A DNA stretch of 64,000 bases from Nitrosarchaeum sp. (lineage in GTDB: Archaea > Thermoproteota > Nitrososphaeria > Nitrososphaerales > Nitrosopumilaceae): NCBI GenBank assembly GCA_025699025.1, contig JAILWJ010000003.1, forward strand, positions 216,192-280,191, read 5' to 3'. Shown in pieces: positions 31,272 to 47,443 of this stretch. Under the pieces are notes generated by a model, which saw only the letters and a program-made list of their open reading frames with translations, ran no database searches and was not told the origin of the DNA. Positions within the stretch are counted from its first letter, which is position 1, and each line of letters starts with the position of its first letter. A program made the position numbers and the translations under genes.

Positions 31272-31291
31272 ATTATCTGTTACCTCCTTTG

Positions 31292-31490: not shown

Positions 31491-33632
31491 ATGGTAGTAA
31501 ATGAAGAGACAGGAATAAGCTCAGAGATAGGCGGCAGGTTGTTCTATTTTTGCAGCCCAGTCTGCAAGCAGACGTTTGTTCAGCCTGAAAAAGAGCTTGC
31601 CAAAATGAAAAAGAGAATGTATGTAGCAGCTTCTGGCGCTCTTATTTTAGCAATAATACGTGCTGCACTTTACATCAGTGTTGCAGCAGGTGCAATGGTA
31701 GTATCTTGGGTTCCATTTCCAGAAATACCATTTCTCTCATACGGCATGTTATTGTTCATCATTGTAACTCCTGTTCAGTTTATTGGAGGATGGACATTTT
31801 ATGTTGGAGCATACCATGCAGTAAAACACAGAACAGCAAACATGGATTTTTTAATTGCAATGGCTACTCTTACTGCATACATTTACAGTACGATTGTCTT
31901 GTTCTTTCCAGAACTCATACCTGGTGAAGAAAAATATGTCTATTTTGAAGTATCTGCAGTAATTATCGCATTTGTCTTACTTGGCAAATACATGGAAGAG
32001 GCAATCAAGAAGAAAAGCTCAGCTGCGGTAAAAAAATTACTTGATCTAAAACCAGCAATGGCTCGTGTCATAAGAGATGGTTTAGAACTTGACATCCCAT
32101 CAAATCAAGTAGTACAGGGAGATATAATGATAATAAAACCTGGAGAAAAAATTCCAACTGATGGAGTTGTAATTGAAGGAGAATCATCAGTTGATGAAAA
32201 AATGATCACAGGTGAGAGCCTACCTGTTGGGAAAAAACCTGATGAGGAGGTGATTGGGGCCACTCTAAACAAACAAGGATTGTTAAAGGTAAAGGCAACC
32301 AAGGTAGGAAAAGAAACAGCACTATCTCAAATCATACATGTAGTTGAGCAGGCACAAAGTTCTACTGCCAAATCCCAGAGATTAGCTGATTCTATTGCTG
32401 CAAAATTTGTACCGTCAGTAGTTTCTGCATCTGTTATTACTTTTCTAGTATGGTATTTTGGAATGAATGATTTTATCTCGGGATTGTTGGCTTTTGTTGC
32501 TGTACTGATTATTGCATGTCCATGTGCATTAGGTGTTGCTACTCCAGCTGCACTAATGGTTGGAGTTGGAAAAGGGGCAGAATCTGGAATATTGATACGA
32601 GGTGCAGAATACTTGGAACGTTCTCAGAAAATTACTACAATAGTATTTGACAAGACTGGAACCCTAACAAAAGGAGAACCTGAAGTCACAGACATTGTTT
32701 CATTAGGAAATATTTCAGAAAATGATCTTATCATATTATGTGCTGCAGTTGAATCTGGCTCTGAGCATCCAATAGCTCAGGCAATTGTGAAAAAATGTAA
32801 GGCAGAAAACATTTCACTACCAACCATTACAAACTTTGAATCATTAAACGGACTAGGAGTACAAGCTGTTGTAAATGGAAAAAACATCTATAATGGCAAT
32901 AGAAAGATGATGACAAAATATGGAATTTCATCAGATGATGTTGAACAAAAAATGAGCGGGTTGGAATCACAGGGAAAGACTGCAATCATTGTTGCAGTTG
33001 ATAAAAAAATTGAAGGCATCATTGCAGTTGCCGATTCATTAAAGGAGTCATCGCCAATGGCAATTGCTGCACTAAAAGATCTTGGAATTGAGTGTATTAT
33101 GATTACAGGAGACAATGAAAAGACAGCAAATGCTATTGCAAAAGAGGTAGGAATATTCAAGGTGATAGCTAATGTTTTGCCTTCTGACAAAGCTGAGGAA
33201 ATAAAGAAATTGCAGTCACAGGGCAAGATAGTTTCAATGGTAGGGGATGGAATTAATGATGCTCCTGCATTAGCACAGGCGGACATCGGAATAGCAATAG
33301 GAAGTGGTTCTGATATTGCCAAAGAGACAGGAGGGATTGTTTTGATCAAAGATGACATCATGGACGTGTCACGTGCAATAAGATTGAGTCAGGCAACTAT
33401 GAAAAAGATAAAACAAAATCTCTTTTGGGCATTTGCATATAATTCAGGAGCAATTCCATTGGCTGCAATAGGATTGCTCAGTCCAATTATTGCAGCAGCT
33501 GCTATGGCATTAAGTTCAATTTCAGTTATTGCCAATTCTGCAATGCTAAGGCGATACAACATCACAAGCGGAGAGGAAAAATTGATGAAAATTTACAAGT
33601 CTAAAAAACAAAAACTCGAGGTTTTGAATTAA
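31467..33632 (+). CDS. copA: Copper-transporting P1B-type ATPase with N-terminal YHS domain
   Basis: A 721-residue membrane ATPase. Residues 1-45 are a YHS metal-binding domain (DPVCGMVV ... FYFCSPVCKQTF) in place of the usual heavy-metal-associated domain. The transport Cys pair CPC (IIACPCALGVATPAA), the phosphorylation motif DKTGTLTKGE, a TGES loop, the HP motif (SEHPIAQ) and GDGINDAPAL are all present. The CPC motif indicates Cu+ (or Ag+) export. A TATA-like TTTTAATATTTT lies about 30 bases before the ATG. It heads an operon with AMP phosphorylase, 5 bases apart. Confidence 0.93.
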   Translation: MAKDPVCGMVVNEETGISSEIGGRLFYFCSPVCKQTFVQPEKELAKMKKRMYVAASGALILAIIRAALYISVAAGAMVVSWVPFPEIPFLSYGMLLFIIVTPVQFIGGWTFYVGAYHAVKHRTANMDFLIAMATLTAYIYSTIVLFFPELIPGEEKYVYFEVSAVIIAFVLLGKYMEEAIKKKSSAAVKKLLDLKPAMARVIRDGLELDIPSNQVVQGDIMIIKPGEKIPTDGVVIEGESSVDEKMITGESLPVGKKPDEEVIGATLNKQGLLKVKATKVGKETALSQIIHVVEQAQSSTAKSQRLADSIAAKFVPSVVSASVITFLVWYFGMNDFISGLLAFVAVLIIACPCALGVATPAALMVGVGKGAESGILIRGAEYLERSQKITTIVFDKTGTLTKGEPEVTDIVSLGNISENDLIILCAAVESGSEHPIAQAIVKKCKAENISLPTITNFESLNGLGVQAVVNGKNIYNGNRKMMTKYGISSDDVEQKMSGLESQGKTAIIVAVDKKIEGIIAVADSLKESSPMAIAALKDLGIECIMITGDNEKTANAIAKEVGIFKVIANVLPSDKAEEIKKLQSQGKIVSMVGDGINDAPALAQADIGIAIGSGSDIAKETGGIVLIKDDIMDVSRAIRLSQATMKKIKQNLFWAFAYNSGAIPLAAIGLLSPIIAAAAMALSSISVIANSAMLRRYNITSGEEKLMKIYKSKKQKLEVLN

Positions 33633-33637
33633 GATTC

Positions 33638-35179
33638 ATGGAACTAAAAATTAAAAATATTGGAATTGAATCGGGCGGAAAACCAATTGTATTTCTTAAT
33701 GTTCACGATGCAGATGAGCTAGGCGTGTCAGCATCTGGAAGATTGCAGATCAATTCAGGCAGAGAAGTTACTGTGATAGTTAACATTGCGTCAGATTCGA
33801 TTCAGAAGGGATATTTAGGAACAAGTAAGGAAGTCCAAAAAATTTTGAAATTAGAACAAGATTCTGTTGTCGATGTCCAGATCTCTGCTTTTCCAAAATC
33901 TTTACAATTCATACGTAACAAACTAAATAGAAAAAAACTCACTTATGAAGAAATTCATGAAATTGTAAATGATGTAGTTGGTGGAAATCTCAGTGAAAGT
34001 GAGATTGCTTCTTTTGTAACTTCATTACATATTCAAGGTCTCAGTTTGGATGAAGCCACTAGTTTATCATTATCAATGGTGATGACAGGAAAACAGCTTT
34101 TTCTTGATGCCAAACAAATTGTAGACAAACACAGTATAGGTGGTGTTCCTGGTGATAAAACCACCTTGCTTGTGGTTCCCATTATTGCCGCAGCAGGGTT
34201 GATCATCCCAAAAACATCTTCAAGAGCAATTACATCTGCAGCTGGAACTGCCGATAGAGCAGAGACAATAATGCCTGTTGATTTGGGGATCTCCGAAATG
34301 AAACAAGTAATTAACAAAACTAACGGGTGTATTGTGTGGGGAGGATCTCTAGATTTAGCACCTGCAGATGATATTTTTGTAAAAACTGAATATTCATTAT
34401 GCATTGATCCTTTACTTCTACCTTCTATTATGAGTAAAAAGAAGGCGGTGGGGGCAACTCATTTGATAGTAGATATTCCAACAGGCAGAGGTGCTAAAGT
34501 AAAAACAATTGGAGAAGCAGATCTACTTGCAAAAGACATTATTGAATTAGGCAAACGTCTTGATATTCACTGTCATTGTGTGTTGACTTATGGTGAACAA
34601 CCAATTGGAAATGCTATAGGTCCATCACTTGAAGCACAAGAAGCACTAAATGTGTTAATGAATAAATCGCAAGTTCCTGATTTGTTTGATAAAGCATGTC
34701 ATGTTGCAGGTTCCATCTTTGAAATAACTGGAAAAAAGGATGGATTTGAATTAGCAAAAGACATTCTTCTTTCTGGAAAAGCAGAAAAGAAACTCAGAGA
34801 GATAATTTCACATCAGGGCGGGCAGCCTGAAATTAAACCCAATGATTTTACTATTGGCGCAAATACATTTGAATATCATTCAAAAGATGAAGGGCAAGTT
34901 TTATGGATAGACAACAACATGGTAGTAGAAATAGCAAGAGCTGCGGGTGCTCCAAAGAACAAGGGTTCTGGAATAATATTTAACAAGAAAAACGGGGATA
35001 AAGTTTCTAAAAATGAATTACTCTTTACAGTATACTCTGAAAAAGCTCAGAAACTCTCAAGAGCAGAACAGATTCTTGATGAAAAAATGCCTATGGGCAT
35101 AGGCAAAAAAATGGAAATGCTGATTCATCAAGTAAAGGAACCTCCAGTCGTAAGAAGATCTTTTGTGTTAGACAGATAG
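33638..35179 (+). CDS. AMP phosphorylase (archaeal DeoA-related)
   Basis: A 513-residue enzyme. The N-terminal 85 residues are the extra domain found in archaeal AMP phosphorylases but not in bacterial thymidine phosphorylase. The catalytic part has KHSIGGVPGDKTTLLVVPII and SSRAITSAAGTADRAETIMP. It would split AMP and phosphate into adenine and ribose 1,5-bisphosphate. It lies 5 bases after the copper ATPase and converges on PRPP synthetase. No RuBisCO is in the window, so the fate of the product is open. Confidence 0.85.
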   Translation: MELKIKNIGIESGGKPIVFLNVHDADELGVSASGRLQINSGREVTVIVNIASDSIQKGYLGTSKEVQKILKLEQDSVVDVQISAFPKSLQFIRNKLNRKKLTYEEIHEIVNDVVGGNLSESEIASFVTSLHIQGLSLDEATSLSLSMVMTGKQLFLDAKQIVDKHSIGGVPGDKTTLLVVPIIAAAGLIIPKTSSRAITSAAGTADRAETIMPVDLGISEMKQVINKTNGCIVWGGSLDLAPADDIFVKTEYSLCIDPLLLPSIMSKKKAVGATHLIVDIPTGRGAKVKTIGEADLLAKDIIELGKRLDIHCHCVLTYGEQPIGNAIGPSLEAQEALNVLMNKSQVPDLFDKACHVAGSIFEITGKKDGFELAKDILLSGKAEKKLREIISHQGGQPEIKPNDFTIGANTFEYHSKDEGQVLWIDNNMVVEIARAAGAPKNKGSGIIFNKKNGDKVSKNELLFTVYSEKAQKLSRAEQILDEKMPMGIGKKMEMLIHQVKEPPVVRRSFVLDR

Positions 35180-35188
35180 TGAATATCA

Positions 35189-36070
35189 TCATCCTTGAAT
35201 GATCTTAGAAATAATTCCTGATAAATCAACTAGGGCATATTTTCCAGAAATGGTATTTGTACTGATAATTTTGCATACTCCTGCCTTTTTGAGTCTATTT
35301 TCAGCATTGCCAGATAGAACTGCATGAGTACATGCAACGTAAATTCTTCCAAGATTTTTCTTTTTAAGAAATTTTATTGCTTTTACTATGCTGCCTCCAG
35401 TGCTTACCATGTCATCCAACAGAATCATGTCTTGAAAGTTGGCTTTAGGAATTCTGGATGACTTGATGATTAGTTCTCCTGTCTTTCGATTTCTTTGTTT
35501 GTTTAATGCAATGTATTCACAATTCAATATCTTAGCAAATTCTTTTGCTTTGTTTTCCCAAAAAAGATCAGGGGACACCACCAATGGTTGATGAAGTTCT
35601 ATCTTTGCAAAATGATTTGCAAGTAATGGCACTGCAGATAGATTCTTTGAGGGTATTTTGAAAAACTTTAATTCTTCATTACTGTGAATGTCTACAACAA
35701 TTAGTTTGGTTGCACCTGCGGCCTTGAGTAATTTTGCAATGACCGAAATTGTGATAATCTCTCCTTTCAAAAATTCCTTGTCTTGTTTTGCATATCCCAT
35801 GTATGGTATTACAGCAATTACTTCAGATGACATTTGTCTTGCTTGGTGAATTAATGAAAATGCCCGAATGAGATTTGTATCTACGGGTGTATGGGTTGAT
35901 TGAACTACAATAATTTTCTGAGCTTTTTTCATTCCTTTGATTGTGAGTTTGCTTTCACCATCATGAAATATTTTCAATTCTGTCTTCAAGAATTTTGCAT
36001 TTAATTTTTTTGAAATCTTTTTAGCTAAACCTTCTGATGAAGGGCCTCCTATCACTACGTATTTTTTCAA
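35189..36070 (-). CDS. prs: Ribose-phosphate pyrophosphokinase (PRPP synthetase)
   Basis: A 293-residue enzyme with the family blocks: VIGGPSSEGLAKKISKKLNA, KIIVVQSTHTPVDTNL, VIPYMGYAKQDKEF, VVDIHSNE, and the PRPP loop DMILLDDMVSTGGSIVKAI. It makes PRPP from ribose 5-phosphate and ATP, feeding pyrE and purine synthesis. The start is a TTG (MKKYVVIGG) with a TATA-like ATTAAATTTAAG about 26 bases upstream, inside the duplicated promoter. Whether the genome has a second copy outside the island cannot be seen here. Confidence 0.92.
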   Translation of the reverse strand: MKKYVVIGGPSSEGLAKKISKKLNAKFLKTELKIFHDGESKLTIKGMKKAQKIIVVQSTHTPVDTNLIRAFSLIHQARQMSSEVIAVIPYMGYAKQDKEFLKGEIITISVIAKLLKAAGATKLIVVDIHSNEELKFFKIPSKNLSAVPLLANHFAKIELHQPLVVSPDLFWENKAKEFAKILNCEYIALNKQRNRKTGELIIKSSRIPKANFQDMILLDDMVSTGGSIVKAIKFLKKKNLGRIYVACTHAVLSGNAENRLKKAGVCKIISTNTISGKYALVDLSGIISKIIQG

Positions 36071-36255
36071 TACATATTGTGTCTAGTGATACGTCTTAAA
36101 TTTAATGAACTGCCAAATGTTTGAAACACTTCTTTACATTTGTAAAATCCAAAAAACAAGCCCTTAGTCACAAACCTGAATATCAAATATGAAAATTGAA
36201 TTTTAATATTTTAGTAAGAAGTGTGAGATCTTAACATGGCAAAAAATCCACATCG
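36060..36255. repeat. Duplicated divergent promoter, copy B (with ATPase start remnant)
   Basis: Second copy of the 31.3-kb element. Here the minus-strand gene (prs) is intact, while the plus-strand side keeps only the first codons of the copper ATPase, ATG GCA AAA AAT CCA (MAKNP, against MAKDP). The two copies are thus complementary halves of one ancestral divergent pair. Confidence 0.85.
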
Positions 36256-36277
36256 GAAAAAAGGAATTTTGGCATGA
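36236..36277 (+). pseudogene. 13-codon remnant of the copper ATPase start, coupled to phaC
   Basis: The frame reads MAKNPHRKKGILA and stops at a TGA that overlaps the ATG of the PHA synthase (ATGA). The promoter in front is the duplicated ATPase promoter, so a leaderless transcript would start at this mini-ORF and reach phaC by termination-reinitiation. It is a fossil that may now act as a leader peptide. Confidence 0.7.
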
Positions 36278-37593
36278 TTGAGAATTACCTTGAACAGTTC
36301 AGAAAATTTTATTTATCCTTGGCAGATTTTGCCAAAAACTCGAACCAATTACTTTTTCAATATAACACAAATTTGGCAGATTCTGTAACCAACGCATTTG
36401 AGGAAAACAATGCAACGTTTACGTCACTAGTATCAGAGAATATGCGAGAAAAGATGAGAAAGTCTTTTGATAGGATTTTTCGAGAAAAAATGAAAGATGA
36501 ACGTTTTATTGACTCTCTTTCAAATACTATGGATTCTTGGTTTGCGTTATCTGAATTTTATGGGATAAACAAGTCATATCAAATTTTTACTGATTTATTT
36601 TCTTCATGGAATAAAATTCTAGAACCATTGCGAGATAATCTGAACAGAACAGATTCAGAAACAATACGAATGAATGGAAGATATCATTTACTACACTACA
36701 AATCAAAAAATAAACCACAGCAAAAAACCCCGATACTGATTGTGTATTCTCTGATTAATAGGCATTACATACTTGATCTGTTACCTGAAGTAAGTGTTGT
36801 AAAGCATTTCATAGATGCAGGGTTTGATGTGTATGCAACAGATTGGGAAACCCCTTCTACTTTTGACAAAGACATGACGCTTGAAAAATACATTCATGAA
36901 TATGTTGAAAATGCAGTAAACAAGGTACGAGAAATCACAAGTTCGGATAAAGTAACATTGTTTGGTTACTGTTGGGGAGGAATCTTTTCATTGATTTATT
37001 CAACAATGCATGCAAATACTGTACAGAATTTGATCTTGCATGCAACCCCATTAGATCTAGAAAAACCAGACACAGTGATTGAGAAATGGACAGAAAAAAT
37101 TCCACCTGATGTGATGGTGGAAAAACTAGGAAATGTGCCAGGTCAACTTCTAAACTTTGCATTTATGATGAGAAATCCTTTGGAAAATATCTTCAAGTAT
37201 CCGAATTATTTTCAAAAACCACGCTCTGCAGATGAGATCAAACAATTTTTTGCAATAGAGACATGGCTGTATGACAGCAGACCTATTTCAGGAAAGGTAT
37301 ACTGTGAGATTATCAAAAAGATTTACCACCAGAATCAACTGATCAAAGGCAAGATGCAGGTAGGCAAAAGACCAGTTAATCTAAAAAACCTGAAAATGCC
37401 AGTTCTAAACATAGTCGGAACAAAGGATGATTTGGTTCCTCCAGATTCAAGCAAGTATGTGATGTGTGATATTCCAAGCACAGACAAGGAATTGATTGAG
37501 TATCCAACAGGACATGTTGGCTTGTGTATTAGCAAAAGAGCTCACAAAGAATTATGGCCAAAAGTTGTCAATTGGGTAAATAAAAGATCATGA
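36274..37593 (+). CDS. phaC: Polyhydroxyalkanoate synthase (PhaC)
   Basis: A 439-residue alpha/beta-hydrolase. The lipase-like box is GYCWGG with the catalytic Cys at residue 233; Asp (GTKDDLVPP) and His (PTGHVGLCI) complete the triad. YATDWETPS is a further PhaC mark. It polymerises hydroxyacyl-CoA into storage granules. The first 125 residues form a helical N-terminal region, longer than in class III PhaC, that could replace or resemble the PhaE partner. The next gene overlaps its stop by 4 bases. Confidence 0.9.
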   Translation: MIENYLEQFRKFYLSLADFAKNSNQLLFQYNTNLADSVTNAFEENNATFTSLVSENMREKMRKSFDRIFREKMKDERFIDSLSNTMDSWFALSEFYGINKSYQIFTDLFSSWNKILEPLRDNLNRTDSETIRMNGRYHLLHYKSKNKPQQKTPILIVYSLINRHYILDLLPEVSVVKHFIDAGFDVYATDWETPSTFDKDMTLEKYIHEYVENAVNKVREITSSDKVTLFGYCWGGIFSLIYSTMHANTVQNLILHATPLDLEKPDTVIEKWTEKIPPDVMVEKLGNVPGQLLNFAFMMRNPLENIFKYPNYFQKPRSADEIKQFFAIETWLYDSRPISGKVYCEIIKKIYHQNQLIKGKMQVGKRPVNLKNLKMPVLNIVGTKDDLVPPDSSKYVMCDIPSTDKELIEYPTGHVGLCISKRAHKELWPKVVNWVNKRS

Positions 37594-38276
37594 AACGTAA
37601 TGTTATCGTAGCACTTGGGGTTTTGGCTACATTTAGTGCGGTTATGGGCGTAACGGCTGATGTATTTTCTGCATGGTCTCCGAACGAAAGTGAAATGAAC
37701 ACAGCGTTTTCAGTTGATCTGGATAGCATTAGAAGTTTCTATGACGACAAACCACGATGGACTTTCATTCTGGGAAATTATTTTGGTGTGTATTTTATTC
37801 CTCTACACATCTTGGGGTTTTTTCTAGTCTATCATGCTTTGAAACCTGCCAACAAAAATTTTGCCTTGGCGTTATTTGCGCTATCTGTTTACGCCACAAC
37901 TATTGGAGTTGGCCTACACGGAACCCTTGCATTCGTTGGAGATATTTTACAGTCGGGAAATGCTGCCCTGATTGAAGGGATGAAGGATTACTGGCAGCCA
38001 TGGGCATATTCATTGGTGGTGTTGTATTCTATTGTCTCAGTCATGATATTGGTATTGATAATTACTGGACGTTCACTTTATCCAAGATGGGCTGCTTTTG
38101 TCAGTCCTATAGCCATCGTAGTTATGACAGTATTTGTAATCGCTATTCTTCCCAACAGTACTGCTGGTGTAAGATCATTTCTTTCCATTAGCGGTCTAAA
38201 CTTGCCTTTGGTGATTTTCTTTGCTATTACAACATGGGTTTTGGCAAGACATAAAAAACTAGAAATTTCTTTGTAA
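37590..38276 (+). CDS. Six-helix membrane protein coupled to phaC
   Basis: A 228-residue protein with about six membrane segments (first at 5-25, then around 62-82, 88-110, 132-160, 165-185 and 200-220) and a loop of about 35 residues after the first. The start overlaps the phaC stop by 4 bases (ATGA), so the two products are made together. I recognise no family. A link to polymer granules or to the membrane stage of substrate supply is only a guess. Confidence 0.6.
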   Translation: MKRNVIVALGVLATFSAVMGVTADVFSAWSPNESEMNTAFSVDLDSIRSFYDDKPRWTFILGNYFGVYFIPLHILGFFLVYHALKPANKNFALALFALSVYATTIGVGLHGTLAFVGDILQSGNAALIEGMKDYWQPWAYSLVVLYSIVSVMILVLIITGRSLYPRWAAFVSPIAIVVMTVFVIAILPNSTAGVRSFLSISGLNLPLVIFFAITTWVLARHKKLEISL

Positions 38277-38519
38277 TTATTTTAAATAAGACAGAAAACA
38301 TGTTTTTTTGAAACCTCAACTAATCCATTTAGAATCGAATATTTTTTTATAAAATATCTCCAGTTTACGTATTACCTTTGAATTAAATAGTTAGGGTTTG
38401 TTGCAGTGATTTTCAATTATGTTTTACACAAGATATTCAGTATTATCGATATGCCCAAACGCAATAGTGGAAATTTGTATATGGTAATTTTAAAAAGAAC
38501 TTACACCAATCCATAATAC

Positions 38520-39404
38520 TTGACTTTAATTATTGGCTTCAAATGTGCTGACGGAATTGCACTGGTATCTGACACTAAAATAATAGACATTGAAACAGGC
38601 GATGTCTCATACGATTCAAAGATACTGACCCCGCTACAAGACACTCCATGCATGGTCGGACTGGCAGGATATGTGAATCTGTTTAACGAGTTTAACAGGA
38701 AAATACCTGAGATTGTAAAACAGAGAATTGCAGAAGTAAGAGTATCCAATGTTGGAGAGATGATCAAAACAGGATTGACGCGCAAGGAAGCAATAGAATA
38801 CATCACGTCCAGAGAAAAATGCATTTCATCCACATTAAGAGAAATTAAAAATGATTCAAAAAACGAGTGTGTGACAAATCCAGACATTGGAGAAATTGAG
38901 CTGCCATACCAGTATTCGGAGGAAAATTTCATAGATGACTGCAAATCATCAGTAAAACAGATCAGTTCTCAAAATGAAAGCATTGAGGATTCTTTAGAGT
39001 TGATAATCGGAATTAGAAGACCCAGAGACAAAAAGATGCATCTGCACCAAATATTTTCAGACGGCACCGAGATTGAAAGTGACGAATACTTGGCAATAGG
39101 ATCAGGGTATCAGTATGCTGAAACATTGTTTGGTAGAGTGTATGACTACAAAAAAGAAATGTCAGTGTTGATTACGGAGGCATTTCGCACTATATCATAT
39201 GCAGTTTTGGTTGGAAAAGAAAGTCTGGTAGGATATACCAAATCGCATCCGCCTGAAGCTGTAGTGATTCACAATGACGGCACATATGGCAAGATGTCAT
39301 TTGAGAATGAATCACAAGTTATTTCAGAGATTGAAAAAGAGATGGAAAATATTGTATTGCAAGTTAAAAATTCGCATGTGCCACATCTAAAGCCAAAACA
39401 GTAA
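38520..39404 (+). CDS. Proteasome-beta-like Ntn hydrolase
   Basis: A 294-residue protein starting M-TLIIGFKCADGIALVSDTK, which has the strand pattern of proteasome beta and HslV subunits with a Thr directly after the initiator Met. Removal of Met would expose a catalytic N-terminal Thr without a propeptide. Asp18 (SDTK) fits the conserved Asp of the family. The TTG start fits the motif exactly. The C-terminal 100 residues exceed a standard beta subunit. It may be a stand-alone, non-20S peptidase, similar in idea to Anbu or HslV. Confidence 0.65.
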   Translation: MTLIIGFKCADGIALVSDTKIIDIETGDVSYDSKILTPLQDTPCMVGLAGYVNLFNEFNRKIPEIVKQRIAEVRVSNVGEMIKTGLTRKEAIEYITSREKCISSTLREIKNDSKNECVTNPDIGEIELPYQYSEENFIDDCKSSVKQISSQNESIEDSLELIIGIRRPRDKKMHLHQIFSDGTEIESDEYLAIGSGYQYAETLFGRVYDYKKEMSVLITEAFRTISYAVLVGKESLVGYTKSHPPEAVVIHNDGTYGKMSFENESQVISEIEKEMENIVLQVKNSHVPHLKPKQ

Positions 39405-39429
39405 AGCCACTAAAATTTGAAAATAAAAT

Positions 39430-39891
39430 CTAGGGGTTATTCATCATGTCATCTGACATATCATCATCCATTATGGTCATGTTTCCCATCATTTGATTTT
39501 GTGTCATTCCACCCTGTGCCATTTGCTGCATCTGCTCCATTGCCTCTTGGTTTTCTGACATGTGACCTAGCATCTGCAATCTAAGATTTGGATCATTGAT
39601 CATCTCCATCATCATCTCCTGCATAAAGTCATGATTTCCTCTCATCAGATCTGCCATCTGTCTGACGTGCTGTGGGCTTTCCATCCATTTCTCCATTGCC
39701 TCAGGGTCATCCATCATGACCTGTTGCCACATTGCCATCTGCTGTGGATTACCCATCATATCTCGCATCTGCTGCTGATTAATCATCATGTAGTTAAAAT
39801 GAGTACTTTGCTGAAATGTAACATACCCCATGCCAAGTCCTGCTGCAAATACTCCAAAGATTATTGCAATCCAAACATACTGACTAGTCAT
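39430..39891 (-). CDS. Membrane-anchored Met-rich protein, putative copper binder
   Basis: A 153-residue protein with an N-terminal anchor (YVWIAIIFGVFAAGLGMGYV) and a Met/Gln/Asp-rich outer part: MMDDPEAMEKWMESPQHVRQ, NHDFMQEMMMEMINDPNLRL, QMLGHMSEN. The NDPNLRLQML unit matches the NDPELRQQMM unit of the 417-residue protein at 28.7 kb, so they are one family with different anchors. Copper binding by Met clusters is inferred. It is divergent from the cupredoxin operon. Confidence 0.65.
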   Translation of the reverse strand: MTSQYVWIAIIFGVFAAGLGMGYVTFQQSTHFNYMMINQQQMRDMMGNPQQMAMWQQVMMDDPEAMEKWMESPQHVRQMADLMRGNHDFMQEMMMEMINDPNLRLQMLGHMSENQEAMEQMQQMAQGGMTQNQMMGNMTIMDDDMSDDMMNNP

Positions 39892-40051
39892 ATTTTTGAT
39901 CAGGACATCATAGTATTATATCATGATATCAGATTTTATCATTGAGAATCAAATATTCGATATTAAAAATAAGAATCCATAGATAAAGAATCAAAGTCAG
40001 ATATGATAATCAGTATTCCTCCATATTAGTAATGATTTCCAATCAATATCA

Positions 40052-40588
40052 TTGAGTCAAATCATCTTAATTGGAATATCAGCATGGTTGGTTGTTTTTT
40101 CAATTTCTACAGTTTATGCTGAAGAAATATTCATTTCAATACCTCAAGGTGATCATACTCAACAATTAAAGACTGTACTTGAATGGTATGTTCCAATTAA
40201 TCACGATGTTGAAATTGGCGACACGGTAACGTGGAAAAATGATGACATTACTGGACACACTGTAACTAGTGGCAAGGGAATTGGGTTTTTAGGTGATCCT
40301 AAAACAGACAAGGCACAACCTGACGGATATTTTGATAGTGGAATTATTCTCCCTGGAAAATCATGGTCATTCACATTCAAAGAAAAAGGATTTTTTGAGT
40401 ACACATGTACAATTCATCCTTGGGTGGAAAGAAGCATCACTGTTTTAGAGCCAGGAATAGATGTTTCTAAAAACATCAGAATTAGTTATGCGACAATTAC
40501 AACAATTGCAATAATCATGATTTCAATTGGCATTGCATATGCAATAGTTAAAACTAGACAGAAGAGAGCAGAGAAATCATCGGGATAG
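40052..40588 (+). CDS. Membrane-bound cupredoxin (plastocyanin-like)
   Basis: A 178-residue protein: signal peptide (to about residue 23), a type-1 copper domain at about 45-133, and a C-terminal membrane anchor (149-166) with a basic tail. Copper ligands are His69 (DITGHTVTS), Cys119 and His122 (YTCTIHPWV). The usual axial Met after the His is replaced, with Val at 125, which would shift the redox potential. The domain faces outside. The start is a TTG. It heads the five-gene operon 40052-43041. Confidence 0.85.
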   Translation: MSQIILIGISAWLVVFSISTVYAEEIFISIPQGDHTQQLKTVLEWYVPINHDVEIGDTVTWKNDDITGHTVTSGKGIGFLGDPKTDKAQPDGYFDSGIILPGKSWSFTFKEKGFFEYTCTIHPWVERSITVLEPGIDVSKNIRISYATITTIAIIMISIGIAYAIVKTRQKRAEKSSG

Positions 40589-40590
40589 AA

Positions 40591-41556
40591 ATGGCCCAAG
40601 AAGTAACTAGTAAAGCAAAAAATATTCTAATAATGTTACTGTTTGCTTTGCTTTCTGCATTCATTATTGGAATGATCTATCTTTCCACAGTTGATCTTGT
40701 TGAAGAACAAGTAGGTGTCACACCATATGCATCATGGTTACTCATTGCATATGCTGCAGGACTATCAATGATTATTTTGCCATGTACTTTGCCAATGGTA
40801 TTCATCATTGTGCCACTATGTATGGGAAAAGGATACAAAAATGGTCTTAGTATTGCGGTTCTTTTTGGAGTAGGACTGGTCATAACAATAACTGCTTATG
40901 GTATAATGGTGGCACTGCTTGGACAGTATACTGGAATTGACCAAGCAACTAGAGTTATGTGGTTTTTTGCAGGGGCCATAGCTTTCACTTTTGGGTTATC
41001 TGAACTGAAATTACTAAACTTGAAACTGCCATCTTATGCAGGTACTCCAAAATTCATAGAAAAACGTGGAGATAAACTAAAACCACTTCTCATGGGTTTG
41101 CTTTTGGGCAATGCAGGAGTTGGATGTCCTAATCCGTTCTTCTATTTTCTGTTAACGTACATTATTGGTACTGGAAGTGTAGTTGTAGGAGGATCATTGG
41201 GTTTAATTCACGGTATTGGCAGAGCAGTCCCTTTGATATTCATTGCAATATTGGCAATACTTGGAATCAGTGCAACACAAACTTTGGTAAAGAAGAGAGT
41301 AGCTGTTGAAAAGGCAACTGGGTTTGGATTGTTGGGTGTTGGTGCATTCATACTTTTACTTGGACTTTTTGGACATCCATGGTGGGAACGCTCGCCATTT
41401 CATCTTGCATGGAATGAAATAATGCCATTGTTTGGAATAGAACCCGAGTTAACAATGGGAGCACATGTAATCATGCCAATTCCTTGGACCATGTTGATAC
41501 TGTTAATTGTAATACCCGCTATAGGGTATTGGGTGAAGGAAAAGTATGGCAAGTAA
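40591..41556 (+). CDS. CcdA/DsbD-like transmembrane thiol transporter
   Basis: A 321-residue polytopic protein with about eight membrane segments. The two Cys-Pro motifs of the CcdA/DsbD core are present: LPCTLP at Cys65 and GCPNP at Cys179, in equivalent positions of the two internal repeats. Proteins of this family carry reducing power, and in some branches metals, across the membrane for cytochrome maturation or copper-site assembly. A GHPWWERSPFH loop and an extra C-terminal helix pair are added. It starts 2 bases after the cupredoxin and overlaps the next gene by 11. Confidence 0.75.
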   Translation: MAQEVTSKAKNILIMLLFALLSAFIIGMIYLSTVDLVEEQVGVTPYASWLLIAYAAGLSMIILPCTLPMVFIIVPLCMGKGYKNGLSIAVLFGVGLVITITAYGIMVALLGQYTGIDQATRVMWFFAGAIAFTFGLSELKLLNLKLPSYAGTPKFIEKRGDKLKPLLMGLLLGNAGVGCPNPFFYFLLTYIIGTGSVVVGGSLGLIHGIGRAVPLIFIAILAILGISATQTLVKKRVAVEKATGFGLLGVGAFILLLGLFGHPWWERSPFHLAWNEIMPLFGIEPELTMGAHVIMPIPWTMLILLIVIPAIGYWVKEKYGK

Positions 41557-42640
41557 AAAAACAATAAACTCTGTAGTACTTGGATCCGTAATAGCAGTCA
41601 TTGTAATCGGCTACATTATGATGAATTACACTCCAATGGGTGCCACATCAGGTGAAGACAAGAGTTTTGATATTACTGCATTTCAGTGGGGATTTGAGCC
41701 GCAATTCATTGAGGTAAACAAAGGAGATCATGTCACTTTCAATCTTGCAACTGATGATGTAGCTCATGGGATTGCAATTAATGAATATCAGATCAATGAG
41801 CCAATTATGGTAGAAAAAGATGCCAAAGTGGAATTTACTGCAGACAAGACAGGAACTTTTGAATTTTATTGTTCAATACCTTGTGGTGCAGGACATGATC
41901 AACAAGGAGGATTTCTAATAGTCAAAGACCCATCAGTGCAAGAACCAGAGAAAGTAATTTTAACTTCAGTCAAATCAGATGAAGTGATTACTGTTGATGG
42001 AACAATAGATGACAAATGGAATGATGTTGCTGATGCAATATTTTCAACAGTGTATGTTCATGAAAATCGTCAAGTGGTAGCTAAATCATTAAACGATGGA
42101 GAGAGGATCTATTTCTTGCTTCGTTGGCAAGACGATGATGCAAATAATGACGGTACAACTGAAACTGATAGAATTGCTTTGGGTTTTGATATTTCTGGAA
42201 ATTCAGATATTGCAATGGGTGCAGCTGGAGTTCCACATGTCACAGTTCCTCAAAGAACAATAGGGGAAGGAGTTGTAGATATTTGGCACTGGAAGGCATT
42301 TGATAGTCACACCAAATCCCCAAATGTGATAGATGATGAGTTTGCTGGACCATTTGAGCAACTAAAAGATCACTACTACAGAGATGATGATAACAATCAA
42401 GGAGGGGAGAACAATCTTACTGCAGTTGGTGTTTATGACCCTACTACAAAAGAATGGATAGTTGAAGTCTCACGATCCCTTCTCACTGAAGATATAGATG
42501 TGACAGGATTTGGAATGATGGATAAGCAGTTTACAGTTGGAGAGGAATACAAAATAGGATTTGCTATTTGGGATGGAGGACAAGGAGAAACAGCAGGGAA
42601 TCATGCTGTAACTGATTGGGGTGTTTTGAAAATTGATTAA
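41546..42640 (+). CDS. CuA-like (COX2-type) domain fused to ethylbenzene-dehydrogenase-like heme domain
   Basis: A 364-residue protein: N-terminal membrane anchor (10-27), then a cupredoxin domain of the COX2/NosZ type at about 40-128, with His74 and CSIPCGAGH (Cys109, Cys113, His117). The Met ligand of classical CuA is missing, with Gln in the expected place. Residues about 140-364 look like the EB_dh/DOMON-like heme-b domain (VDGTIDDKWNDVADAIFSTV, RIYFLLRWQDDD, W..EVSRSLLTE, FAIWDGGQGE). A protein with copper and heme sites on the outer face suggests electron transfer or a terminal reductase role. Confidence 0.75.
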   Translation: MASKKTINSVVLGSVIAVIVIGYIMMNYTPMGATSGEDKSFDITAFQWGFEPQFIEVNKGDHVTFNLATDDVAHGIAINEYQINEPIMVEKDAKVEFTADKTGTFEFYCSIPCGAGHDQQGGFLIVKDPSVQEPEKVILTSVKSDEVITVDGTIDDKWNDVADAIFSTVYVHENRQVVAKSLNDGERIYFLLRWQDDDANNDGTTETDRIALGFDISGNSDIAMGAAGVPHVTVPQRTIGEGVVDIWHWKAFDSHTKSPNVIDDEFAGPFEQLKDHYYRDDDNNQGGENNLTAVGVYDPTTKEWIVEVSRSLLTEDIDVTGFGMMDKQFTVGEEYKIGFAIWDGGQGETAGNHAVTDWGVLKID

Positions 42641-42661
42641 GATTTTCAGGAAGTGCAGGAA

Positions 42662-42811
42662 ATGGTAAAAGATCTAGTTTGCAATATGGATGTAGATGAA
42701 AAAAAAGCAGCAAAAAAAGAATACAAGGGAAAGATATACCACTTTTGTAGCCCTACATGTCAATGGGCATTTGATATGAATCCTGAATCATTTATAGAGG
42801 CAGAATCATGA
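42662..42811 (+). CDS. YHS-domain mini-protein
   Basis: A 49-residue protein: MVKDLVCNMDVDEKKAAKKE, YKGKIYHFCSPTCQWAFDMN, PESFIEAES. It is a single YHS domain with three Cys, closely resembling the N-terminus of the copper ATPase at 31467. It probably carries Cu or Zn in the cytoplasm. The stop overlaps the glutaredoxin-like start (ATGA). Confidence 0.8.
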   Translation: MVKDLVCNMDVDEKKAAKKEYKGKIYHFCSPTCQWAFDMNPESFIEAES

Positions 42812-43041
42812 AAGTAGAAATTCTCACCACTCCGGGCTGTTCTAATTGCAGTGTTGTGGAAAAGATGTTAGACGAGATGAAAATACCATACGATGTAATT
42901 GATGTAACTGAAAAACCAGAGTATCTGGAAAAATATCCAATTTACACGGCTCCAGGAGTTGTAATTGATGGAAAACTAGAGTTTACAGGCGTTCCAAAAA
43001 AACAAGAACTTGTTGAGAAGCTAAAAGCACAGGTCTTGTAG
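42808..43041 (+). CDS. Glutaredoxin/thioredoxin-like protein
   Basis: A 77-residue protein with a redox CxxC at residues 11-14 (TTPGCSNCSVVEKMLDE), a thioredoxin fold pattern and the TAPGVVIDGKLEF block with the cis-Pro. It resembles small archaeal glutaredoxins. As the last gene of the operon it could supply electrons to the CcdA-like protein or keep copper-site Cys reduced. Confidence 0.85.
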   Translation: MKVEILTTPGCSNCSVVEKMLDEMKIPYDVIDVTEKPEYLEKYPIYTAPGVVIDGKLEFTGVPKKQELVEKLKAQVL

Positions 43042-43100
43042 ATTGTCAATAAAAAAAGTCCCAAATAATCAATGCATACAAAAAATATGCTAACAATTAC

Positions 43101-43134
43101 GATTTTGTTAAATTTAAAGTATTTACCACATTTC
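43101..43134 (-). promoter_or_regulatory. Second copy of the 34-bp promoter element
   Basis: It matches 29958-29991 with one mismatch. It lies between the convergent glutaredoxin-like and CDF genes and points (minus strand) into the 3' end of the copper/redox operon, where I see no ORF. It may drive an antisense RNA, or be a relic of a lost Met-rich gene. Confidence 0.5.
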
Positions 43135-43165
43135 GTAATTGATTCTAAAAATATAGAATAATAAT

Positions 43166-43783
43166 TTACGATTCAAATTTTTTTAATTCACTTTGAGCAT
43201 CTTTAATGATTGACCAAGACGATTGAAGAAAGAGACTAGCGATAATTCCTGCAGCTATAAGATCAGGCCAGGATGTATTTGTCCAAAATACTAAACCAGC
43301 TGCAACTACTACAAGAATATTTCCAAGTGCGTCATTGCGACTAAAGAGCCATACTGCACGAACGTTTGCATCACCTTTTCGATGTGGAAGCAATATGATG
43401 ACTGCAATAATATTGATCAAAAGTGCACCGATACCAAAAACTCCCATCAGTCCAGCTTCTGGAGTATGCAAAACTTGTGTACGATAAATTGTGTAACCAA
43501 GTATTGCTATCCCCATCACACCAAGAAATATTCCTTGAATGAGAGCTGAGCGAGCTCTCAATTTAAGACCCCATCCTATTGCAAGCAATCCTAAGAATGT
43601 GATAGAACCATCACCGAGAAAATCAAGTGCATCAGCTTTGAGTGCTTGAGAATCTGCAAGGAACCCTCCAATCATCTCAACAATTCCGTAACCTACATTG
43701 ATCAAAACAACTATCCATAATGCCTTACGATATGCAGGAGTTATGTGAGAAAGATCTTTTGGTAAATCGTCATCATCTGGCAT
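43166..43783 (-). CDS. Cation diffusion facilitator (CDF) transporter
   Basis: A 205-residue, six-helix membrane protein: WIVVLINVGYGIVEMIGGFL, DSQALKADALDFLGDGSITF (Asp pairs of the metal site in helix 2), and AVWLFSRNDALGNILVVVAA with NDxxGN in helix 5. It lacks the cytoplasmic C-terminal domain, so it belongs to the short form. It is likely a Zn2+, Co2+ or Cd2+ proton antiporter. It is minus strand, convergent with the copper/redox operon. Confidence 0.85.
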   Translation of the reverse strand: MPDDDDLPKDLSHITPAYRKALWIVVLINVGYGIVEMIGGFLADSQALKADALDFLGDGSITFLGLLAIGWGLKLRARSALIQGIFLGVMGIAILGYTIYRTQVLHTPEAGLMGVFGIGALLINIIAVIILLPHRKGDANVRAVWLFSRNDALGNILVVVAAGLVFWTNTSWPDLIAAGIIASLFLQSSWSIIKDAQSELKKFES

Positions 43784-43815
43784 TAAATCACCATATCAGG
43801 ATTTGGATTGAGTTT

Positions 43816-43920
43816 TCATTTTTTATGATTCCCAAACAAACAAAAAATACAAACATCATAGTAGACATTTGATATATTTCGTTCACATCCACATATACAA
43901 GGACATTTTTTGTTACTCAT
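43816..43920 (-). CDS. 34-residue Cys-rich peptide
   Basis: ATG to TGA encodes MSNKKCPCICGCERNISNVY, YDVCIFCLFGNHKK: CxCxCxC and then CxxC, enough for a zinc or Cu(I) site. It lies between the CDF transporter and the first Usp gene on the same strand. Confidence 0.45.
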   Translation of the reverse strand: MSNKKCPCICGCERNISNVYYDVCIFCLFGNHKK

Positions 43921-43933
43921 TTTTTGATATTAT

Positions 43934-44368
43934 CTATTTTATAATTAAAACAGGACATTTAGCTGACTGGCATACAGCATTACTCACACTACCTAAAAGA
44001 AATCTGTTAAATCCTGTCTGTCCATGTGAGCCAATTACAATTAGATTGATTTTTTTAGAATCAGCAAAACGAAGAATCCGTTTTGAGATGGATTTTGCCT
44101 CAAGAATGTGAATAGAAAGCGAAACATCAGAGTCCTTTGCTGTCTTTTCTAATTTTGAGAGAAACCCCATTGCAAATTTCTTGGCATCTTTTATTATTTT
44201 TTCATTTACTCTTTTATCAACATACCAAGCTCCAAGATTTTCTTTTTCTAAACAAGTTAAAACATTAATTTTAGCTTTCTTTCTTTTTGCAATTCCTAAT
44301 GCCGCATTAAATGCCTTGACTGAATAAGATGAACCATCAAAAGGCACTAGAATATTTGTTATTGCCAT
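43934..44368 (-). CDS. Universal stress protein (copy 1 of island pair)
   Basis: A 144-residue Usp: ITNILVPFDGSSYSVKAFNA at the start, and the ATP motif GSHGQTGFNRFLLGSVSNAV (G-2x-G-9x-G-S) followed by CPVLIIK. It lies 3 bases after its tandem paralogue. It is probably an ATP-binding stress protein carried as cargo with the copper genes. Confidence 0.9.
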   Translation of the reverse strand: MAITNILVPFDGSSYSVKAFNAALGIAKRKKAKINVLTCLEKENLGAWYVDKRVNEKIIKDAKKFAMGFLSKLEKTAKDSDVSLSIHILEAKSISKRILRFADSKKINLIVIGSHGQTGFNRFLLGSVSNAVCQSAKCPVLIIK

Positions 44369-44371
44369 GTC

Positions 44372-44806
44372 TTATTTTACCACCATTACTGGAACATTTG
44401 CATTATGTGCTACATCATTTGCAACACTTCCCAAAATAACCTTGTTAAGACCAGTTCTGCCATGAGATCCAATTACAATTAGATCAAATTCATGAGATTT
44501 TACGTAATTCCTAATTGCTTTTGATACAGAAGGATTATGTAATATTCTTAATGAAAGAGGTATGCCTTTTTTGATTGCAGCAGTTTGAAGATGTGAAACT
44601 AGTTTTTTCAGGGTTTTGTTTTGTTTTTCTAGAACTTCTTTGTTTAATTTCATTGAAAAACCAATAGAAGGTTGGTATATGCCTGTTACAACCGTAACTA
44701 GAGTTATTTTACTTTTATTTGGTTCTGCAATATCTAACGCACTATTGAAAGCTCTATTTGAAAACCCCGAAGCATCATACGCTACTAGGATATTTTTTAA
44801 ATCCAT
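44372..44806 (-). CDS. Universal stress protein (copy 2 of island pair)
   Basis: A 144-residue Usp: LKNILVAYDASGFSNRAFNS, with ATP motif GSHGRTGLNKVILGSVANDV and the end VPVMVVK. It is the upstream gene of the pair and has the same length as copy 1. The two are diverged paralogues, so this is an old tandem duplication. Confidence 0.9.
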   Translation of the reverse strand: MDLKNILVAYDASGFSNRAFNSALDIAEPNKSKITLVTVVTGIYQPSIGFSMKLNKEVLEKQNKTLKKLVSHLQTAAIKKGIPLSLRILHNPSVSKAIRNYVKSHEFDLIVIGSHGRTGLNKVILGSVANDVAHNANVPVMVVK

Positions 44807-44918
44807 ATTGATTATAATGTAAATTCGCTTGTTATTAACTCATAATACCATATTCATTCTTGAACCCATTAAAGTAGATTCATTGTTAGCAGAACGAATC
44901 ACACCGTATATGATGTAA

Positions 44919-44935
44919 AATGAGAATTTCTCATT
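44919..44935. promoter_or_regulatory. Inverted repeat upstream of the Usp pair
   Basis: AATGAGAA-T-TTCTCATT is a perfect 8-bp inverted repeat with a 1-base centre. It lies in the gene-free stretch 44807-45095, about 115 bases before the Usp start codon. It may be an operator. Nothing else is recognised in this stretch. Confidence 0.35.
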
Positions 44936-45095
44936 AAATCTTTGAGCGAGATTTACAAAATCACATCTACACTCTATCGCGGGTAAGGCTCGATTGAGTT
45001 GCTACTTTGTTCAGTTTCGTTGTGAGTTGTTATGATATCAGGTTCCACGATCTAGAAAAAGTATTGTAGTGAGTTTCTAAATAATTTTAAAATTA

Positions 45096-45921
45096 TCATT
45101 CAGTTATTATTGGAATATCAAATGGCATCAACTGCTCTGCTCTATCCTGATAATATTGTACAGCATCAGGTAACATCTCATAAACAGCAGATCTCAAACT
45201 AACTTTCAGAGCATGTTCTGCATTACCTATCCCCATACCAGCATAGGGAATCTCTGAGTTCATCAATATTGCTCTGCCCATACGTAATCTATCTTCTAAT
45301 GGTAAATCATCCATATCATCAGCCAGAACTACAATATCTCCTCTAGCATGAGAATCCCACCATAATGGATTCTCAAGAGTAGGAGCTTTTCGTGCATCCC
45401 ATTCATAAATACCTGGCTTTTCAAAAACCACTTTATCATTTCCAAAAGGAGGGATAACAGGTCCAATCCAAGTTAATTCATGTTCTTTTGCTATTTCGCC
45501 AGTACCTGACTCTTGAATCCGTATAGTTTCAGGAGTATGATTAACAAAATTTATTGTGTTGTTATCAACATGTATAATCAGATCAGATGGCTCTGCTTTT
45601 GAGTGATTTCCATCTTCAGGAAAGACATGTATTGTTTGCGGGTAACTAAGAATATCCACAAGTGACAATTCTTCTGATGTATCAAAAAATGTCAGTTGTG
45701 TTATGGCATAATAATTAACACGGTTAGAATGCGCAGAAGCTTCTATGAGATAAGAATTGCCATCAGTTGCATTAATCACACAAATACCAAACATCATCTT
45801 TTTTCAAGGAACCTGAATCAAATGTCACCTTGAATTGTTTCTCATTATTATCAATACAATAGAAAACTAAGCCTAGATCCTTATTGTGTAATTCAGTATT
45901 TAGTTTCTTTTCTGAAATCAT
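45096..45921 (-). pseudogene. Frameshifted, truncated paralogue of the 4830-6260 envelope gene
   Basis: The frame at 45096-45797 (233 residues) aligns with the C-terminal half of the protein at 4830-6260 (EWDARKAPTLENPLWW, QLMPFDIPII). Upstream, a 49-codon frame from an ATG at 45921 aligns with the preceding segment and breaks in a run of six A (near 45795-45802). Removing one A would join ...FDSGSLKK to MMFGICVINATDGN. Even when joined, it lacks the paralogue's N-terminal anchor. It is probably a decayed copy; a slippage-dependent or sequencing-error case cannot be excluded. Confidence 0.65.
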
Positions 45922-46127
45922 AATGATTAATTGTTTTAGGGATTTAAAAGACTAGGTCTAGAGGAATTTTAAAAAATACTAGATGGTGTACAGGGTAGAC
46001 CAATAAAATTATTTTATAAATGCCTTATTTCAAACCAACCAAAATTTAGGATAATTGATTTACAATCTAACTCATAATTTTGTCCATTCATGTTTCTTCC
46101 TTTCTTCTCTTCTTCAAATAATGGTTT

Positions 46128-47321
46128 TCAATTGTTTGGCAATACAGCATCACTAGTTTTTTTATTTTCTTGGCGTGCTATCCAGTCCATGATTTTTGCA
46201 TTGTCATCTTTGACCTTTTGAAGTTCTGATTTTTCTTGCTTTAGTTGTTCATTTTCCAGTCGCATTCTCTCATCATCAGAGATGGTTAGAAATGGAATTG
46301 CCTTTTGATATTCTGAAAATCGCTCAAAGTCTTCTTCTTCATATCTCTCATAGCTTGATTCTAGTGCCACCTTGTGTCCCATCATGTCCTCCTTGTCTGC
46401 AAAATTCACCTTTGCCCGTCTAAGCATTGTGTTAAAGTATTTCCTGAATCCATGATCCAGTTGTACCTCGTATCTTTTCTTACCTGGAATCATATTATTT
46501 CTCAACCCTAGATGTTCAACTATTTTTTTGACTCTTCTTGAGACTCCGCCGTGTTTCAATCTGGCAGGATAGGGCAGTCTTTCTTGGGCCAAAAGAGGAT
46601 CAGAGGGCAATGGTTCTGCAAAGAACTTGCTTTTCCAGTATACTTTGTAGATGTCCATCAAATTGCAAAATTCAGGTGTGATATGGGTCCAGTATTCCTC
46701 TGCATCTCCATGATATACACGCAATGCACCACCTTTGTACGTCCCATCATCATTTTTGAAAACCACAACGTCACTCCAAGTGAAATAGTCCCATGCTTCC
46801 AATCGAAATCCGCCTGATGAGAATCCTACAATGATCATCTTGTCTGTGATATCCTCACAATGAACTATCATCTTTTGAATTTCAGTTCTTGTGTATGCCC
46901 TGTCTTCACTTTTTGTTTCCTTTGGCATCATTCTGTCTATCAAATACCAAGAAAAGTCAATCTCATTTGCACGCAGCAAAGTCTTGATTGGTTTTAGTCT
47001 GTTTCTTGATGTGTTTGGATTTAGTTTCTTATCATCAATCTGTTGTTTTAGTGTCATGACATAACGTTTGATTTTATTTTTTCCAGCGTTAGGATCTTTT
47101 CGAATTAATTCAACAAAATTATTCACTAGTATTGCAAATTTCTTTTCTGGAAGCAGTTTTCTTTTCTGCTGTGATTTTTCCCAATCATAGTTTGGATTGA
47201 GAAACATCTCTAGCTGTCCTGCATATTTTTTCTTGGTTACCTTGTCTCTAATTGCTGTGATGTAATTCTCGTACGGCGTAATCTCAGAGAACTCATCTAG
47301 AGGAGAGTCTTGCTTGCTCAT
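46128..47321 (-). CDS. int: Tyrosine recombinase (integrase) of the island
   Basis: I start at the ATG at 47321 (MSKQDSPLDEFSEITPYENY), 397 residues; the longer TTG frame reaches into the tRNA. The N-terminal part is a SAM-like DNA-binding region. The catalytic residues are visible in order: Arg in SSGGFRLEAW, H-x-x-R in LDHGFRKYFN, the GH of MMGHKVAL and the nucleophile Tyr in SSYERYEEED. A C-terminal coiled coil (LENEQLKQEKSELQKVKDDN) follows. It lies 48 bases from the tRNA 3' end, the usual place for an element integrase. Confidence 0.9.
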   Translation of the reverse strand: MSKQDSPLDEFSEITPYENYITAIRDKVTKKKYAGQLEMFLNPNYDWEKSQQKRKLLPEKKFAILVNNFVELIRKDPNAGKNKIKRYVMTLKQQIDDKKLNPNTSRNRLKPIKTLLRANEIDFSWYLIDRMMPKETKSEDRAYTRTEIQKMIVHCEDITDKMIIVGFSSGGFRLEAWDYFTWSDVVVFKNDDGTYKGGALRVYHGDAEEYWTHITPEFCNLMDIYKVYWKSKFFAEPLPSDPLLAQERLPYPARLKHGGVSRRVKKIVEHLGLRNNMIPGKKRYEVQLDHGFRKYFNTMLRRAKVNFADKEDMMGHKVALESSYERYEEEDFERFSEYQKAIPFLTISDDERMRLENEQLKQEKSELQKVKDDNAKIMDWIARQENKKTSDAVLPNN

Positions 47322-47368
47322 GGCATCTTTCCTATGATCATGGGACCAAATAAAGGAGATACTAGGGT

Positions 47369-47386
47369 ATGGGCCCAAAGGGCTTC
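47369..47386. mobile_element. Proximal attachment site in the tRNA 3' end
   Basis: 18 bases (atgggcccaaagggcttc) covering the 3' acceptor strand and the 3' part of the T-arm of the tRNA(CAT) gene. It is repeated with one mismatch at 28175-28192. Confidence 0.7.
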
Positions 47387-47443
47387 GATCCCTTGGCTCA
47401 CCGGTTATGAGCCGGTTACTCTACCAAGCTGAGTTATGGGCCC
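47370..47443 (-). tRNA. tRNA with CAT anticodon (elongator Met or Ile2)
   Basis: Minus-strand cloverleaf: acceptor GGGCCCA/TGGGCCC, D-arm ACTC/GAGT, anticodon stem ACCGG/CCGGT with loop CTCATAA, T-stem AAGGG/CCCTT, discriminator A. The anticodon stem lacks the three G-C pairs of an initiator. The T-loop reads ATCGAAG, with A where T54 is expected. It is the integration target of the island; its 3' part would derive from the element. CCA is not encoded. Confidence 0.88.

Follow-up and report, generated by a model that had tools for sequence, protein, structure and literature searches.

The current work concerns a cluster of five genes located on a 64,000-nucleotide stretch of the genome of Nitrosarchaeum sp. 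(family Nitrosopumilaceae; GenBank assembly GCA_025699025.1, contig JAILWJ010000003.1, positions 216,192 to 280,191 of the forward strand), this whole stretch being referred to as the window. The genome encodes an archaeal AmoA, and the host is therefore an ammonia oxidiser. All five open reading frames were found on the forward strand (40052-43041 of the window; Table 1), and encode, in this order, a cupredoxin (gene 1), a CcdA-type membrane protein (gene 2), a protein in which a CuA-like domain is fused to an EB_dh domain (gene 3, the CuA-heme protein), a YHS protein (gene 4) and a small thioredoxin (gene 5), each family assignment being backed by Pfam and NCBIfam. Genes 1 and 2 are separated by 2 bp, genes 2 and 3 overlap by 11 bp, and the YHS gene follows after 21 bp (if its start is taken as the ATG at 42662) and overlaps gene 5 by 4 bp, so that the genes are indeed real and tightly packed, as claimed in the original prediction, which had been made from the sequence alone. 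A sigma-70 and terminator scan, based on a model that is ill-suited to archaea, returned promoter-like matches that were not above chance.

The original prediction had regarded the operon as a self-contained five-gene system without named relatives, and had proposed to search for co-occurrence of the five families in other archaeal genomes. The families do co-occur elsewhere, and the claim of an unprecedented module is only partly right: the full set was seen in the window genome only, two other genomes (L038, L039) share four of the five genes, all but that for the cupredoxin, and the unit that is conserved across the family is a trio consisting of CcdA, YHS and thioredoxin. Of 398 genomes sampled from the phylum, 59 contain CcdA homologues, and 30 homologous loci were fetched; YHS and thioredoxin genes lie directly downstream of CcdA in 28 of these, while the other two have YHS only. 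The 28 include L042 (the G378 copy), whose YHS and thioredoxin genes stand behind a CuA-heme gene and were read in L009/L102, outside the L042 stretch. In the window, the trio is interrupted solely by the CuA-heme gene. The operon thus builds on a widespread archaeal trio, of which it is a variant, and its novelty resides in the CuA-heme b fusion, in which two axial ligands have changed, and in the tie of this fusion to a thiol relay.

Considering that the CcdA-YHS-thioredoxin order recurs in nearly all loci, the gene order of the operon is not due to chance. It might still be argued that five unrelated genes merely reside together on a metal-resistance island, without any joint function, as metal genes gather on islands and as the cupredoxin gene lies directly upstream of the CcdA and CuA-heme genes in the window only. 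Such co-residence is highly improbable, however, given that the reading frames overlap and that the set formed by the CcdA, CuA-heme, YHS and thioredoxin genes is repeated at L038 and L039.

Gene 2 scores 38.1 bits against DsbD_TM (curated cut-off 27.1), and comparison with its sequence returned chance matches only in the PDB. Among the CcdA homologues, Cys179 is present in 41 of 41 and Cys65 in 40 of 41, the sole exception being a copy that contains a stop (L105:5975-6769, G397:C25). This copy, in which Cys65 is replaced by Tyr and which carries the stop internally, lies beside Met-rich and multicopper-oxidase genes and belongs to a decayed copper-type cluster. In a tree of CcdA sequences, that of the window groups with those of L038 and L039/G378 in a clade (100/100) lying apart from the main family group, indicating that the operon copy did not arise by recent duplication of the one resident elsewhere in the genome. 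Judged from its sequence, gene 2 is most simply read as a thiol reductase that would relay electrons outward from thioredoxin. The metal transporter that had been offered as another identity for gene 2 is not needed, because the DsbD-type cysteine pair is kept. A role in moving copper or another soft metal instead of electrons, with the YHS protein as inner chaperone and the cupredoxins as outer donors or acceptors, would fit the binding of soft metals by YHS/TRASH domains, and Cu(I) binding by DsbD, as in ScsB, has been raised for Nitrososphaera viennensis (PMC7785015); we nevertheless regard it as improbable, since both cysteines are invariant, a thioredoxin gene is nearly always adjacent, and a dedicated Cu(I)-ATPase is already encoded nearby on the same genomic island (see below).

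On the cytoplasmic side, gene 4 carries conserved Cys residues, and copies of gene 5 that are 63-86% identical occur in 20 of 20 genomes searched. The label of glutaredoxin first given to gene 5 was dropped, as Pfam and NCBIfam place its product nearer to the small archaeal/ArsE-type thioredoxins. The proposed overall arrangement, with inner Cys proteins, a membrane thiol relay retaining both CcdA cysteines, and outer copper/heme domains, is otherwise supported.

The metal-ligand assignments of genes 1 and 3 are predictions from alignment. Gene 1 retains the type-1 ligands His, Cys and His (GHTV, CTIHPW), and its axial position is occupied by Val (HPWV) as opposed to the Met (HPWM) of cupredoxins in relatives. 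Gene 3 matches Cupredoxin_1 (3.4e-9) and EB_dh (3.6e-22; PF09459, 80 bits against a cut-off of 33.3) in Pfam. Its cupredoxin domain is grouped by NCBIfam with the CuA domains of NosZ and CoxB, and its best PDB matches are the CuA domains of Thermus ba3 oxidase. The predicted ligands His74, Cys109, Cys113 and His117, corresponding to the His, Cys-x3-Cys, x3-His set of cytochrome oxidase subunit II and NosZ, are kept relative to Thermus CuA and are invariant in four fusions; the axial Met position, by contrast, is Gln120 in all four, while Met is found in 24 of 24 other CuA domains of the phylum having the full motif. The domain is therefore predicted to be CuA-like and not canonical CuA, and gene 3 is not part of an oxidase or of NosZ.

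With respect to the heme, the original prediction stands in part. Heme binding is plausible. Met224 of the EB_dh domain is invariant in 33 of 33 sequences, whereas the second ligand position departs from the family, being His353 in the fusion where 30 of 30 other members have Lys; the axial ligands of the heme b of ethylbenzene dehydrogenase are Met and Lys (PMC8840923). Gene 3 thus shares its EB_dh domain and axial Met with EbdC and NxrC, the gamma subunits of type II DMSO-reductase family enzymes, but differs from them in being fused to a CuA domain, in the Lys to His353 change, and in that no gene for a molybdenum catalytic or Fe-S subunit lies nearby. An AlphaFold model of the fusion, built from four sequences, had a mean predicted local distance difference test (pLDDT) score of 57.8, which was too poor for ligand geometry; Foldseek searches with this low-pLDDT model ranked NxrC, EbdC and CuA domains high, at low TM-scores.

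Full-length CuA-EB_dh fusions were found only in the window genome, L038, L039 (G378) and L040 (G397). The ccdA gene overlaps the fusion gene in the first three, and YHS and thioredoxin genes follow in each; at L039, another cupredoxin gene lies between the fusion and the YHS and thioredoxin genes. The L039 fusion gene (6001-7089), from a metagenome-assembled genome, contains an in-frame TAA within its EB_dh domain. The L040 fusion has an extra Met-rich N-terminal part that is related to a Met-rich protein encoded on the island (28691-29944).

The overlap of the ccdA and CuA-heme genes in three lineages, together with the nature of CuA and EB_dh domains as electron-transfer modules, would also accommodate a working electron export, in which electrons from cytoplasmic thiols pass through CcdA to both centres of the holoprotein, CuA and heme b, and from there to an acceptor on the outside (Cu(II), Fe(III), oxygen species or the cupredoxin), the CuA-heme protein being the terminus of the relay and not a client of assembly. 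The exchanges of Gln for Met at CuA and of His for Lys at the heme are expected to shift both potentials, plausibly down towards those of thiols, which favours such an export. To our knowledge, however, no DsbD-family protein reduces a metal centre directly, and transfer from a two-electron thiol to a one-electron metal is uncommon. In addition, the CuA-heme gene is missing beside most CcdA-YHS-thioredoxin copies, and the potential of the ethylbenzene dehydrogenase heme b is high, at +256 mV (PMC8840923). Electron export is therefore possible but unlikely, and it is rather doubtful that the fusion, with its CuA(Gln) and heme b(Met/His) centres, represents a new kind of redox protein on the outer face, to which CcdA would supply electrons from cytoplasmic thiols; if it does, ammonia-oxidising archaea would possess a means of exporting electrons from thiols to metals, for instance a Cu(II) or Fe(III) reductase.

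Two contexts of the trio dominate. In the core context, the trio occupies a fixed chromosomal locus, with a DUF gene and a radical-SAM gene downstream of it. In the copper-type context, the order is cupredoxin, DsbA-like, CcdA, YHS and thioredoxin (L077, L079-L081, L085), with Lrp/AsnC-TRASH, second DsbA-like, Met-rich and multicopper-oxidase genes nearby, the DSBA and TRASH domains being confirmed by domain matches. Seventeen full-length Lrp-TRASH genes were found in 20 genomes, and 13 of them lie within 6 kb of a trio as opposed to 0.2 expected, corresponding to a linkage approximately 60-fold over chance. In Pyrococcus, copper is sensed by CopR, which is such an Lrp-TRASH regulator (PMC7830388). 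The window operon resembles the copper-type cluster in its divergent Met-rich gene, cupredoxin and CcdA, but its CcdA and YHS genes are separated by the CuA-heme gene and a DsbA gene is missing. There is no Lrp-TRASH gene in the window, and the only full-length copy of the genome lies on another contig (G000:C1:28083). A second, resident copy of the trio, at the core locus of this genome, has genes for an HxlR-like regulator, arsM, a low-molecular-weight arsC and an aquaporin directly upstream (L006:4111-7790, G000:C2); relatives of the same genus have the core trio locus without ars genes.

The operon is carried by an integrated genomic island of 19.2 kb, as indicated by the duplicated attachment (att) repeat and by empty sites in relatives. 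The two repeats, TGGGCCCGAAGGGCTTC on the left and TGGGCCCAAAGGGCTTC on the right, are shown in Table 1. When the DNA between 28000 and 47990 was used as query against relatives, the sequences left of 28193 and right of 47370 were found to be contiguous in three genomes of the same genus (G398, G397 and G013), and the junction read in G398 contains a single copy of TGGGCCCAAAGGGCTTC. The integrase matches recomb_XerA_Arch in NCBIfam (1e-12, under the curated cut-off) and, weakly, Phage_integrase in Pfam, and the G+C content of the island is 35.5%, compared to 38.7% and 40.3% in its flanks. The operon had been labelled as mobile, and this label is borne out by the integrase, the direct repeats and the empty sites. 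No relatives of CcdA were found on the viral contigs or plasmids searched, nor any of the CuA-heme protein on the viral contigs searched, and there is accordingly no sign of spread via known viruses (both proteins) or plasmids (CcdA).

Table 1 Features of the five-gene operon and of the genomic island that carries it (positions in the window)
Feature	Position	Strand	Remarks
Gene 1, exported type-1 cupredoxin, C-terminal anchor	40052..40588	+	Pfam Copper-bind 3.8e-6
Gene 2, putative CcdA/DsbD_TM membrane thiol relay	40591..41556	+	Pfam DsbD_TM 1.3e-9
Gene 3, N-terminal membrane anchor, CuA-like domain, EB_dh heme-b domain (predicted)	41546..42640	+	
Gene 4, small cytoplasmic YHS protein	42662..42811	+	Pfam YHS 6.7e-16; GTG start at 42653 also possible
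Gene 5, cytoplasmic 77-aa thioredoxin-like protein, CSNC active site	42808..43041	+	Pfam Thioredoxin_3 2.4e-16
Genomic island, 19.2 kb	28177..47370		At 3' end of tRNA-Met gene; carries the operon
Left att repeat TGGGCCCGAAGGGCTTC	28177..28193	+	17 bp, one mismatch to copy in tRNA-Met 3' end near 47370
Right att repeat TGGGCCCAAAGGGCTTC	47370..47386	+	3' end of tRNA-Met
tRNA-Met gene	47370..47443	-	Island insertion site
Tyrosine recombinase/integrase	46128..47378	-	Abuts tRNA-Met
CopA, Cu(I)/Ag(I) P1B-1 ATPase with N-terminal YHS domain	31467..33632	+	Same island
Membrane-anchored Met-rich protein	39430..39891	-	Divergent from operon; Met-rich sequence
CDF-family cation efflux protein	43166..43783	-	Pfam Cation_efflux 1.2e-18; island neighbour

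Further genes of the island include copA, whose product matches E1-E2_ATPase (2.3e-57) and YHS (8.1e-10) in Pfam and contains the motifs CPC, N-x6-YN-x4-P and P-x6-M-x2-SS-x5-N-x3-L. Two exported Met-rich proteins, both encoded on the reverse strand (28691-29944 and 39430-39891), contain repeated M/N/Q-rich units, and homologues of the latter (41-46% identity) divergently adjoin the trio cluster at L075 and L080. The CDF transporter gene has a copy with 84% DNA identity at G000:C1:276230. AMP-phosphorylase-like and phosphoribosyl pyrophosphate (PRPP)-synthetase genes are located at 33638-36070; a second PRPP-synthetase copy is present elsewhere in the genome, and similar gene pairs occur in G397 and G399. 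A PhaC-like alpha/beta hydrolase gene followed by one for a DUF6796 membrane protein occupies 36274-38276, and a PhaC-like gene is also present on the G397 contig bearing the CuA-heme gene.

In our estimation, the odds are about even (probability of roughly 0.5) that the operon represents a version of the CcdA-YHS-thioredoxin module of the Nitrosopumilaceae which is carried on an island and serves to assemble and protect extracytoplasmic copper proteins. This reading rests on the invariant CcdA cysteine pair, the contiguity of the trio, its copper-type neighbours and linkage to Lrp-TRASH genes, the overlap of ccdA with the CuA gene in three genomes, and the presence of a P1B-1 CopA on the same island. 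The kept CcdA cysteines, the dedicated thioredoxin and the outer DsbA-like or CuA-cysteine clients make a thiol relay for metal loading the simplest reading, for which oxidase assembly offers a precedent: TlpA keeps the CuA cysteines of apo-CoxB reduced (PMC6696091), and CcdA carries electrons outward from cytoplasmic thioredoxin (PMC9145763). We infer that electrons would be handed by the thioredoxin, following its reduction in the cytoplasm, to the two cysteines of CcdA, which would move them outward and, directly or via a DsbA-like partner, reduce the Cys-x3-Cys pair of the gene 3 apo-CuA, and possibly the cysteines of further copper sites, which would allow copper to be inserted. Gene 4, the YHS protein, may act as a cytoplasmic Cu(I)-binding chaperone or buffer, tying the module to the copper state of the cell. 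The finished CuA/heme-b protein and the blue cupredoxin would carry electrons on the outer face, probably to manage the redox state of Cu(I)/Cu(II), a task which they would share with the CopA pump, the Met-rich proteins and the CDF protein of the island.

Several observations weigh against this assembly role. Core trio loci without copper genes occur in many genomes (e.g. L076, L078 and L084), the resident trio of the window genome adjoins ars genes, and the general role of the trio may thus be broader than copper. Moreover, the CuA-heme gene of L040 stands without CcdA, the window operon has no gene for an outer DsbA- or TlpA-like protein, and Nitrosopumilus maritimus shows no DsbD response (PMC7785015). 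The first two of these points would also suit a general soft-metal/metalloid or oxidative thiol-stress module that is not specific to copper, the cupredoxins being passengers of a metal island; yet the ars genes were added to a conserved core locus (L111 and L104 versus L006), and the copper-type neighbours recur in several genera together with the marked Lrp-TRASH linkage, for which reasons a general stress module is regarded as unlikely.

The operon can be set beside several known systems. With the CcdA/ResA and CcdA-TlpA (ScoI, CoxB) pathways for cytochrome c/CuA assembly it shares the cytoplasmic thioredoxin, the two-Cys CcdA-type relay and an outer CuA cysteine pair as presumed client; it differs from them in having no TlpA/ResA-like gene, in adding a YHS protein and a dedicated thioredoxin, and in that the client would be a CuA-heme b fusion instead of an oxidase subunit II. 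With the archaeal CopR-CopM-CopA copper system it shares TRASH/YHS metal-binding proteins and the island CopA, and CopR-type Lrp-TRASH genes lie near the trio in relatives of the window genome, but the thiol relay and the CuA-heme protein are foreign to that system and no CopR-type gene stands beside the window operon. DsbD-family genes rank among those most strongly induced when the ammonia oxidiser N. viennensis is limited for copper, and the redox counterparts of DsbD were described as missing (PMC7785015). The operon shares with that organism a DsbD-family protein linked to copper, but here thioredoxin and YHS genes are adjacent, as is DsbA in relatives, and the trio thus supplies candidates for the missing partners, the DsbD likeness being taken at family level only. 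A literature search for DsbD plus YHS in this archaeal group found nothing.

Ammonia-oxidising archaea depend on copper proteins located outside the membrane, whose assembly and upkeep in a reduced state are poorly understood. The conserved trio, tied to CopR-type regulators and DsbA, provides candidate redox partners for the copper-responsive DsbD proteins of this group, and the CuA-heme b fusion, with its two changed predicted metal ligands, represents a natural experiment in the tuning of both centres.

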